From NCBI GenBank assembly GCA_035530055.1, contig DATKVN010000005.1:1-46787 (forward strand): a stretch of 46,787 nucleotides of DNA. Reading direction: 5' to 3'. The translations under genes and the position numbers were made by a program. The notes beneath the pieces were generated by a model. It was given only the letters and a program-made list of their open reading frames with translations. It ran no database searches and was not told the origin of the DNA. The stretch's first letter is position 1; the number at the start of each line of letters is the position of its first letter. Shown piece by piece: positions 1,619 to 43,342 of this stretch. This stretch comes from a bacterium (GTDB lineage Bacteria > UBA6262 > WVXT01).

Positions 1619-1711
1619 GTAGTGTAGAGTTTTATGCCCGCAATTTGAAATTTGAAATTGGTGATGTAGGACTTTATCCCCGCAGAAATTACGTCCATAG
1701 GGCTACACTAC
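1619..1711. repeat. REP-like GTAG...CTAC element, family A
   Basis: The element opens with GTAGTGTAG and closes with CTACACTAC. Inside are the arms TTTTATGCCCGCAA and TTACGTCCATAGGGC, which are imperfectly complementary. Related copies lie at 21347-21433, 38097-38248 and 43267-43342. An AATTTGAAATTTGAAATT tract (1642-1659) is embedded, giving an interrupted, decayed-looking copy. Confidence 0.7.
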
Positions 1712-8082: not shown

Positions 8083-9517
<1,435 letters not shown>

Positions 9518-15821: not shown

Positions 15822-15934
15822 CAGCACCGCTTGCGGTGCGTTAGGAGTAGCAGAGCTTGCTCTGCGATAACTAATCGCGAGACAAGTCTCGCTACTCCAG
15901 CTCTGCGTTAACGCGAAACAAGTTTCGCTACTCC
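15815..15934. repeat. REP-like GGAGTAGC...GCTACTCC elements, family B (radC-proS)
   Basis: Three units lie in tandem. GGAGTAGC (15815) is followed by the palindrome GCACCGC-TT-GCGGTGC (15824-15839). A complete element at 15844-15898 has ends GGAGTAGC and GCTACTCC enclosing two hairpins (AGAGCTTGCTCT and GAGACAAGTCTC). A left-truncated copy at 15899-15934 holds GCGTTAACGC and GAAACAAGTTTC and ends GCTACTCC. It matches the reverse complement of the element at 30634-30683. Confidence 0.85.
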
Positions 15935-17670: not shown

Positions 17671-17683
17671 AAAGAGAAAAAAG

Positions 17684-17736
17684 AGTCAGGGTCATTTTTT
17701 CGTTAAGTGAAAAGAAAAAGGGGCATGACCTTTTTT
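17684..17736 (+). terminator. Probable terminator after proS
   Basis: GGTCAT (17690-17695) pairs with ATGACC (17725-17730), with further TTTTTTC/GAAAAGAAAAA pairing inside, and TTTTTT follows at 17731-17736. It could also be a copy of a dispersed GGGGCATGACC repeat acting as a terminator. Confidence 0.5.
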
Positions 17737-17746
17737 AATTTTTTAC

Positions 17747-17775
17747 TTGCATTATCTTTTAAAACTTGCTATATT
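17747..17775 (+). promoter_or_regulatory. Promoter for the nusA-infB operon
   Basis: TTGCAT (17747-17752) and TATATT (17770-17775) are separated by 17 bases, each 4-5 of 6 to consensus. It lies directly between the proS terminator and a second hairpin, leaving a leader of about 70 bases before nusA. Confidence 0.55.
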
Positions 17776-21313: not shown

Positions 21314-21433
21314 GTAGCGGTAGAACGAAGCTCTACATCAATGTAGGTAGTGTAGGGTTTTATGCCCGCAATGGTTTTGGTAGTGTAGGGGCTTGTCCCC
21401 GTAAAAAATTACGCCCATAAAGGGCTACACTAC
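21314..21433. repeat. REP-like elements, family A, between infB and ylxP
   Basis: A short unit GTAGA-ACGAAGC-TCTAC (21320-21336) is followed by a full family A element from GTAGTGTAGGG (21347) to GGGCTACACTAC (21433). The element includes GGGGCTTGTCCCC and the arms TTATGCCCGCAA and TTACGCCCATAA. The right half is nearly identical to 43297-43342. Confidence 0.75.
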
Positions 21434-30573: not shown

Positions 30574-30683
30574 CCGCTCCGACCAGTCGGAGCGATTTAT
30601 ACGCAGACTGAAGTCTGCTACTCCACGTTATTTGGAGTAGCGAAACTTGTTTCGCGTTAACGCAGAGCAAGCTCTGCTACTCC
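30572..30683. repeat. REP-like palindromes between uppP and ftsK (family B and relatives)
   Basis: CGCTCCGAC-CA-GTCGGAGCG (30575-30594) and GCAGACT-GA-AGTCTGC (30603-30618, followed by TACTCC) precede a complete family B element at 30634-30683. That element has ends GGAGTAGC and GCTACTCC enclosing GAAACTTGTTTC, GCGTTAACGC and AGAGCAAGCTCT. It is the reverse complement of the family B copies at 15844-15934 with different arm sequences. Confidence 0.85.
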
Positions 30684-33464: not shown

Positions 33465-33579
33465 GTAGCCACAGAGCGAAGCTCTATATTGTAGGGGCGA
33501 CACTCTGTGGTCGCCCAAAGGAAGGGACGGCACGGAGTCCGTCCCCTACAGGGAAGCTCCGATTAATCGGAGCGGCTAC
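33465..33579. repeat. REP-like palindrome cluster between lolA and rodZ (family C)
   Basis: GTAGCCACAGAGCG... opens the block. GGGCGAC (33495-33501) pairs with GTCGCCC (33510-33516), headed by GTAGG. GGGACGG (33524-33530) pairs with CCGTCCC (33539-33545), followed by CTAC. GCTCCGATTAATCGGAGC (33556-33573) is a perfect 18-bp palindrome followed by GGCTAC, related in reverse orientation to 30572-30594. Confidence 0.8.
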
Positions 33580-33599
33580 AAAAATAAACAGGAACAGAA

Positions 33600-38096: not shown

Positions 38097-38248
38097 GTAG
38101 TGTAACCCTTTATGAGCGTAATCTTTACCGAGATAAGTCCCTACGCTACCAAAACCATTACGGGCATAAAGCCCTACACTACCAAATCATTATTCGTAGT
38201 GTAGCCCTTTATGGGCGTAATTCTTACGGGCATAAAGCCCTACACTAC
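38097..38248. repeat. REP-like elements, family A, tandem copies after xerD
   Basis: The block runs from GTAGTGTAACCC to GGGCCC-free terminal CTACACTAC, with at least two and a half copies. A near-perfect inverted pair GTAGTGTAGCCCTTTATGGG (38196 onward) and CCCTACACTAC (38238-38248) closes it. Arms include TTACGGGCATAAAGCCC and TTATGGGCGTAATTC. The copies are not evenly spaced and have no unique spacers. Confidence 0.8.
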
Positions 38249-39333: not shown

Positions 39334-39361
39334 GTCTGGAAGCAACAAGGTTTCACAGAAG

Positions 39362-39386
39362 AAAAAAGTACCTGTCCCCTTTTTTG
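39362..39386. repeat. Short dispersed motif GTACCTGTCCCC
   Basis: AAAAAAGTACCTGTCCCC followed by TTTTTT lies between moxR and the DUF58 gene. It resembles GGTGCCTGTCACC at 5202-5218 and the GGGGCATGACC region at 17684-17736. These belong to a motif type seen in intergenic spots of this window. Confidence 0.4.
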
Positions 39387-39396
39387 AGAGGTAAAA

Positions 39397-43266: not shown

Positions 43267-43342
43267 GTAGCGTAGGGGCGACCTTTATGGTCGCCCAAGG
43301 GCTTGTCCCCGTAAAAATTACGCCCATAAAGGGCTACACTAC
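43267..43342. repeat. Chimeric REP-like element (families A and C)
   Basis: GTAGCGTAGGGGCGACC, with its partner GGTCGCCC (43289-43296), is family C. The right part, from GGGCTTGTCCCC through TTACGCCCATAAAGGGCTA to CACTAC, is family A and nearly identical to 21388-21433. The joined copy shows that the palindromic units behave as modules. Confidence 0.75.

Follow-up and report, generated by a model that had tools for sequence, protein, structure and literature searches.

Intergenic hairpins of probable REP type, with two kinds of tag and facing pairs of unlike stems, in a bacterial draft genome of lineage UBA6262

The closest described relatives of the palindromes analysed here belong to the GTAG REP superfamily and its REPtrons (Nunvar 2010; Di Nocera 2013), with which four of the present families (F3, F4, F5 and F7) share short stem-loops, an unpaired 5' GTAG, high copy number, an intergenic position and a head-to-head arrangement. 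They depart from the GTAG REPtrons in that F3 has no flanking RAYT gene here and in that at least five families occupy one genome of 1.68 Mb. Facing pairs built from two REP classes recall the E. coli BIMEs, in which Y is combined with Z REPs, and the enterobacterial GTAG-3 family. Heterodimers predominate in many families and are exclusive in GTAG-3, and the pairs of Pseudomonas GTAG-1 are mostly identical; the preference 'has no obvious explanation', SbcCD having been suggested (Di Nocera 2013). In contrast to BIMEs and GTAG-3, the rule found here is exceptionless in five unrelated families, extends over two tag systems and holds in a genus without detectable SbcD. Likewise, the inverted REP doublet is the probable copying unit in Pseudomonas REPINs (Bertels and Rainey 2011) as it is here, although REPINs are typically identical with long spacers, whereas the doublets in question are never identical and mostly leave 2-14 nt between hairpins. 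More distant systems differ plainly. The CGTC-tagged superfamily has an unpaired CGTC and no RAYT, in contrast to GTAG or GGA-NN tags with RAYT flanks; IS200/IS605 insertion sequences move TnpA and subterminal hairpins as a unit, whereas the IS200 TnpAs of this genome are not hairpin-flanked; and the 'double foot' REP of subclass 2.4 is one hairpin with 5' GTAG and 3' CTAC, whereas each GTAG...CTAC block here contains two separate, complete REPs with a hairpin apiece.

The stretch analysed, of 46,787 nt (the window), is a single contig (C5) of a 106-contig draft of 1,678,755 bases; all contigs were rebuilt and their summed length agrees. This genome is designated G000 and its congeners G001, G002 and G003. 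The palindromes are very probably REP elements copied and moved by RAYT/TnpAREP-type Y1 HUH enzymes, in two tag systems and in facing pairs whose stems differ. On this reading each REP is a single-strand hairpin preceded on its 5' side by a short tag that stays unpaired, and most REPs stand head to head in pairs of the BIME/REPIN type; RAYTs would bind the tag and the hairpin as single-stranded DNA and cleave close by, and their activity would be current or recent.

The block at 38097-38248 comprises five REPs of family F3, three of them intact and the other two degenerate, that pair head to head; its outer ends are GTAG and CTAC. An earlier note on the window had listed eight gaps with palindromes ending in this way. 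Seven of them (38097, 1619, 15844, 21347, 30634, 33491 and 43271) do so, although the F2 blocks at 15844 and 30634 merely look GTAG-tagged because GGAGTAG contains GTAG; the block at 8684 does not, and holds F1 hairpins tagged GGACT or GGAGT plus one internal F4 element. The elements of the window are as follows (coordinates, strand, description).

1619..1639, plus: F3 REP, slightly degenerate, starting a degenerate F3 block that runs to about 1709
8686..8706, plus: F1 REP with tag variant GGACT (CCTCCC GAAA GGGAGG), from sequence reading
8710..8735, minus: F4 REP (CGTAG-GGGCGACC CTTGT GGTCGCCC)
8760..8780, plus: F1 REP (GGAGT-CCTCCC GAGA GGGAGG)
15844..15865, plus: F2 REP (GGAGTA-GCAGAGC TT GCTCTGC)
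15877..15898, minus: F2 REP (GCGAGAC stem), heterodimer partner of 15844
15913..15934, minus: F2 REP (GCGAAAC stem)
21347..21367, plus: F3 REP (GGGT stem)
21380..21400, plus: F3 REP (GGGG CTTGT CCCC)
21413..21433, minus: F3 REP (GCCC stem), heterodimer partner of 21380
30634..30655, plus: F2 REP (GCGAAAC stem)
30662..30683, minus: F2 REP (GCAGAGC stem), heterodimer partner of 30634
33491..33516, plus: F5 REP (GTAG-GGGCGAC ACTCTGTG GTCGCCC)
33524..33549, minus: F5 REP (GGGACGG stem), heterodimer partner of 33491
33555..33581, minus: F8-type REP (TTGTAGC-CGCTCCGAT TA ATCGGAGCT, minus strand)
38097..38117, plus: degenerate F3 REP (GTAGTGTA-ACCC TTTAT GAGC), from sequence reading, head to head with 38129-38149
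38129..38149, minus: degenerate F3 REP (GTAGCGTA-GGGACTTATCTCG, minus strand), from sequence reading
38162..38182, minus: F3 REP, stem class B (GGGC TTTAT GCCC), 93 exact-pattern genome copies
38196..38216, plus: F3 REP, stem class A (GCCC TTTAT GGGC)
38228..38248, minus: F3 REP of stem class B, forming a heterodimer head to head with 38196-38216
43271..43296, plus: F4 REP (CGTAG-GGGCGACC TTTAT GGTCGCCC)
43322..43342, minus: F3 REP (GCCC stem)

The open reading frame listed at 8669-9517 has its GTG start in or beside a REP, and its real start is probably downstream of about 8800.

Hairpin families and their tags across the genome

Over the whole 1.68 Mb, some 756 REP hairpins lie in about 380 blocks and make up 1.04% of the sequence. 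The density is high, as had been claimed, but the earlier figure of about one block per 6 kb was too low, the measured value being one per 4.4 kb. REPs are commoner in tandem than in divergent gene gaps. Families were assembled from repeated words and counted with tag-plus-palindrome patterns, giving the following (family, pattern, count).

F1: GGAGT-(CCTCCC GAAA GGGAGG) plus stem variants, 217
F2: GGAGTA-(GCGAAAC TT GTTTCGC) plus variants, 166
F3: GTAGTGTA-(GCCC TTTAT GGGC) plus variants, 106
F4: CGTAG-(GGGCGACC TTTAT GGTCGCCC), 31
F5: GTAG-(GGGACGG.. or GGGCGAC..), 191, by a loose pattern with some false positives within genes
F7: GGTAG-(YCGCAACCT TT AGGTTGCG), 38

Stems change by paired substitutions while loop and tag stay constant, and only 4 of the 106 F3 elements fall within called genes. 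The expectation of genome-wide copies beyond chance was borne out, exact family patterns recurring 93-142 times in the genome against 0 for the reversed pattern. When each of the 256 tetranucleotides was scored genome-wide for its position 0-2 nt before an intergenic hairpin, GAGT came top (402 of 1398 sites, 5.7-fold) and GTAG second (333 of 1522 sites, 4.3-fold), those ranking after them being mostly frame-shifted pieces of the same two motifs. The predicted excess of GTAG over other tetranucleotides is thus real, but that of GAGT is higher still; similarly, several families do exist, but they do not form the single GTAG-ended system that had been proposed, as F1 and F2 carry GGAGT.

Blind reading of the tags, in which hairpin bodies lacking the tag were searched and a consensus was taken from the flanks, gave TGGAGT upstream of F1, with 96-100% agreement at most positions and the fourth tag base least fixed (71-86% for the two main bodies); the downstream side of F1 yielded no comparable consensus in these body-only searches. 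The same approach returned GGAGTA for F2, GTAGTGTA for F3 and GTAG for F4 and F5. In 339 of the 382 copies in the genome, 13 or 14 nt separate GGAGT from the hairpin tip. An unpaired GTAG is found at the 5' foot of the hairpin in F3, F4, F5 and F7, is lacking in F1, and arises in F2 by the overlap GGAGTAG alone.

RAYT genes and the GGA-NN clade

Eight Y1-transposase genes are present in the genome, six of RAYT type and two IS200-type TnpAs (on contigs C100 and C7) with TnpB-like genes downstream. All six RAYT-type genes lie outside the window, in keeping with the earlier note, which had seen none within it. Those on contigs C14, C43, C35 and C69 exceed the cut-off of the NCBIfam RAYT model NF047646 (85-100 bits against 80), profile matches to the E. 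coli TnpAREP structure 4er8 reach E=6e-16 and 4e-12, and the HUH motif, the W and the Y...NP motif are present in the RAYTs on alignment to E. coli RayT. Each of these four sits between hairpins of its own family: C43 with F1, C35 with F2, C14 with GTAG-GGGACGACC.. and C69 with GTAG-GGGCGGG.., the C14 and C69 genes being flanked by F5-type hairpins. The C43 and C35 proteins, of 174-177 aa, are about 50% identical to each other, as are C14 and C69 at about 55%, and identity between the two pairs is 22-25%. Two tag systems coexist, RAYTs of the C14/C69 type going with GTAG hairpins and those of the C35/C43 type with GGA-NN (GGAGT). The palindromes form several intergenic families of high copy number with a tag conserved on one side, and four RAYTs have their own REPs at their flanks; that these enzymes cut and move the REPs is what knowledge of the family would suggest. 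The assignment to REPs mobilised by RAYTs, made from the window alone, was right in kind and incomplete, given four RAYTs flanked by their own scattered hairpins and tags of two types.

For F3, the family of the 38097 block, the proposed Y1-transposase flanked by the same hairpins did not materialise: in the own genome none was found by profile, nor by tblastn with the six RAYTs and the congener RAYT L197. Likewise, no F7-flanked RAYT was found in the own genome. F3 is probably a relic or a trans-mobilised population, its RAYT missing from the assembly. In congener G003, L197 adjoins an F4-like hairpin on one side, and the own genome has no close copy of this gene. No ATG, GTG or TTG precedes the conserved core of the C43 RAYT (G000:C43:15886-16407), and an F1 REP ends a few bases upstream; the gene may be dead, or may be translated from a rare start, and consequently F1 is possibly no longer active.

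Tags were read automatically, with no sequence assumed, from both flanks of 53 RAYT genes, and others were read by eye. GTAG was obtained automatically for C69, L152 and L153 and by eye for C14 and L197. GGAGT(A) was obtained automatically for the own C35, L183 of Cloacimonadota, L184 of Buchananbacteria and L194 of a congener, and GGACG or GGATG for L182 of Patescibacteria and L189 of Anaerolineales; GGAGT was read by eye for the own C43, L181 of Zixibacteria, L185 of Moraniibacteriota and L187 of Anaerolineales. A separate clade in genome G021 has the tags GGAGC, GGACC and GGAAC. C35-type genes form one clade of 15 members (tree support 100/98), and every called tag among them is of GGA type (10 of 10). 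The relatives of C35 and C43 from Zixibacteria, Cloacimonadota, Patescibacteria and Chloroflexota thus carry GGA-NN too, with a constant spacing of 13-14 nt to the tip, and the hairpins of F1, L182 and L189 are without any GTAG.

Compared, as an alignment of the 15 members, with Table 1 of PMC6006769 rather than with its sequences, the C35/C43 clade bears the marks of TnpAY1 subclass 2.8 (Quentin 2018): H[YF]H, W[YH/other], YIH[YH]NP and a proline-containing HRPPHIY N-terminus, those of the subclass being HYH, W[YH], YIHYNP and a proline-rich N-terminus. It differs in that the REPs here are GGA-NN and not GT[AG]G, and in that the published sample is from Cyanobacteria only. Subclass 2.8 REPs are given there as GT[AG]G, and the automatic search required GT[AG]G, which the F2-type GGAGTAG would pass because of the overlap. 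Tag diversity as such is not new, non-GT[AG]G feet being already known for subclass 2.6 and class 3 (CnGA) (PMC6006769). A literature search found no mention of GGAG as a REP tag, and GGA-tagged systems in uncultured phyla would be invisible to the published REP catalogue because it was built on GT[AG]G (and CGTC). Three features are new: a RAYT clade to which the GGA-NN tag belongs, a small genome in which both tag systems occur side by side, and heterodimer pairing without exception. Given that RAYTs read the tag directly and that the tag is thought to choose the cut site, a second natural tag with a distinct enzyme clade offers ready pairs for testing tag recognition. In E. coli, Q95 touches the tag. 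WQ at position 95 occurs in 6 of 6 GTAG-type enzymes (E. coli included) against 2 of 14 of GGA type (Fisher p=0.0007), a contrast that is confounded with clade; as a tag determinant the change at position 95 was set aside, and loss of WQ is a lead only, since it tracks clades. Hairpins of F2 type identical or nearly identical to the own (GGAGTAGCGAAACTTGTTTCGC) also occur in other phyla, in the genomes of L181, L183 and L187 (G386, G388 and G391). The RAYTs of these three are just 45-63% identical, which suggests that conservation is stronger in the hairpin than in the enzyme or that elements have been exchanged.

That there is but one GTAG-tagged REP system, with GGAGT as mere longer context of GTAG, could be argued from the F2 end GGAGTAG, in which GTAG is readable at the stem foot, and from the published GT[AG]G of subclass 2.8 (PMC6006769). 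This is improbable: F1 (GGAGTCC) has no GTAG, yet its flanking RAYT shares 50% identity with the F2 one and groups with relatives whose tags are of GGA type; the same clade in other phyla has GGACG, GGATG, GGAGTC and GGAGTAA; the apex ruler is constant for GGA; and none of the ten clade members with a called tag departs from GGA. Hairpins between co-directional genes might also be transcription terminators or mRNA-end structures under RNA selection, with no mobile origin, the more so as pairs are oriented relative to transcription, class B coming first in 23 of 25 F5 pairs and in 18 of 22 F3 pairs. The preferred direction points to insertion on a particular strand or to selection at the RNA level. 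An origin as terminators is nevertheless very improbable: the sequence recurs almost unchanged in 90-140 copies, whole pairs form arrays beside RAYT genes, copy number varies several-fold from one congener to another, two species can have unlike systems at a shared site, the repeat includes no U-run, and an Rfam search of the window returned no family. Least credible of all is the view that the hairpins are ends or PATE-like remnants of IS200/IS605 elements moved by the two IS200 TnpAs: these genes, with their TnpB-like neighbours at C100 and C7, do exist, but neither has any REP family at its flanks, whereas the four RAYTs have theirs.

Facing pairs and their unlike stems

Same-family neighbours placed head to head, with tags outside, were heterodimers in 161 of 161 cases (F1 46, F2 53, F3 25, F5 34, F7 3), with 0 homodimers against about 39 expected by random pairing. 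All 78 pairs of F2 and F3 combine one stem class with the other. Identical members make up 0 of 30 tail-to-tail pairs and 15 of 55 same-direction neighbours, and no identical facing pair occurs in the own genome at any distance up to 400 nt. The rule also holds in the pairs readable from match lists of the congeners and of Zixibacteria, Cloacimonadota and Chloroflexota genomes. Over a dozen distinct pair types are represented, though copies are not independent, so that a founder effect could explain the heterodimers; collapse of perfect palindromes in short-read assembly is a possible way in which identical pairs might be hidden.

Under DNA parameters, identical pairs fold as one hairpin of 21-26 bp at -27 to -37 kcal/mol, and real pairs at -13 to -18 kcal/mol with more local hairpin pairing. 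Folding is nevertheless mixed, both local hairpins being kept in just 43-68% of real heterodimers in four families. Two identical stems would give one long, very stable palindrome, unstable in replication and hiding both hairpins and tags, and this instability or hiding is most likely the reason for stem-different pairs. Removal of identical pairs by the SbcCD nuclease (Di Nocera 2013), in place of competition between a long hairpin and two REP hairpins, would accord with the minimum stem of 8-16 bp quoted for cleavage (PMC3733652), given the 21-26 bp that identical pairs would form. SbcD was undetected in 4 of 4 genomes of the genus, however, against a match in 13 of 14 control genomes, and SbcC matches in the genus are weak and confined to the ATP site; SbcCD is therefore an unlikely agent here, and the rule holds not only in this genus but also in a Chloroflexota genome that has SbcCD. 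A genome in which five families supply 161 pairs, with zero exceptions and no detectable SbcD, makes the question of why heterodimers are preferred directly testable.

The evidence leans modestly towards a broader proposition that joins tags and pairs. A multi-phylum, subclass 2.8-like RAYT clade would be guided by GGA-NN, set at a constant distance from the hairpin tip, in place of GTAG; REP tags would then span more than GTAG/CGTC, and searches built on GTAG would have overlooked them. Short-spacer doublets would, in addition, be strictly heterodimeric independently of SbcCD, keeping each hairpin readable or replicable.

Variation among congeners and a second repeat group

Copy numbers differ among the own genome, G001, G002 and G003, in that order.

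F1: 142, 10, 2, 30
F2: 138, 9, 0, 31
F3: 93, 22, 4, 41

Both order-mates have zero copies of F1, F2 and F3. The presence of RAYTs in a close relative, which the earlier note had made a test of its reading, is confirmed by matches in G003 (and in G000 itself); G001 and G002, in which no RAYT was matched, have the lowest copy numbers, the assemblies compared being incomplete and unequal in size. One orthologous gap holds an F2 heterodimer in the own genome (G000:C15:9560-9800) and a complete, unrelated GTAG REPtron in G003 (C107, L192). At another, the G003:C46 RAYT (L193) lies between two direct hairpin repeats, and the own genome (G000:C87:4380-4580) has a single copy and no gene; this site looks like the solo repeat left behind when a RAYT is lost, or like an empty site. 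Such differences would be expected if elements are gained and lost by way of RAYTs and recombination. A leuC/leuD-like gap appears twice in the G003 assembly (C116, L195; C112, L197) with a different RAYT each time (compare G000:C14), which points to a strain mixture or a replacement.

Two genes of about 220 aa, at C31:3320-3994 and C10:27686-28345, are flanked by long inverted repeats (GGGACAGCGACCATT or GGGGACACAATACTTAAT) that are also dispersed. They resemble the TIRYT/TIRtron systems (subclass 2.1-like; PMC3733652), and their repeats stand apart from the GTAG and GGA hairpin families. Further dispersed repeats, with 19 copies of AAATAGGGACAGCGACCATTTTT, 24 of GGGGACACAATACTTAATTAT and 13 of AGAAAAAAGTACCTGTCAC, form a second group that matches, or is similar to, the terminal inverted repeats of these TIRYT-like genes, and similar pieces lie in the window at 39354-39396 and 17671-17770.
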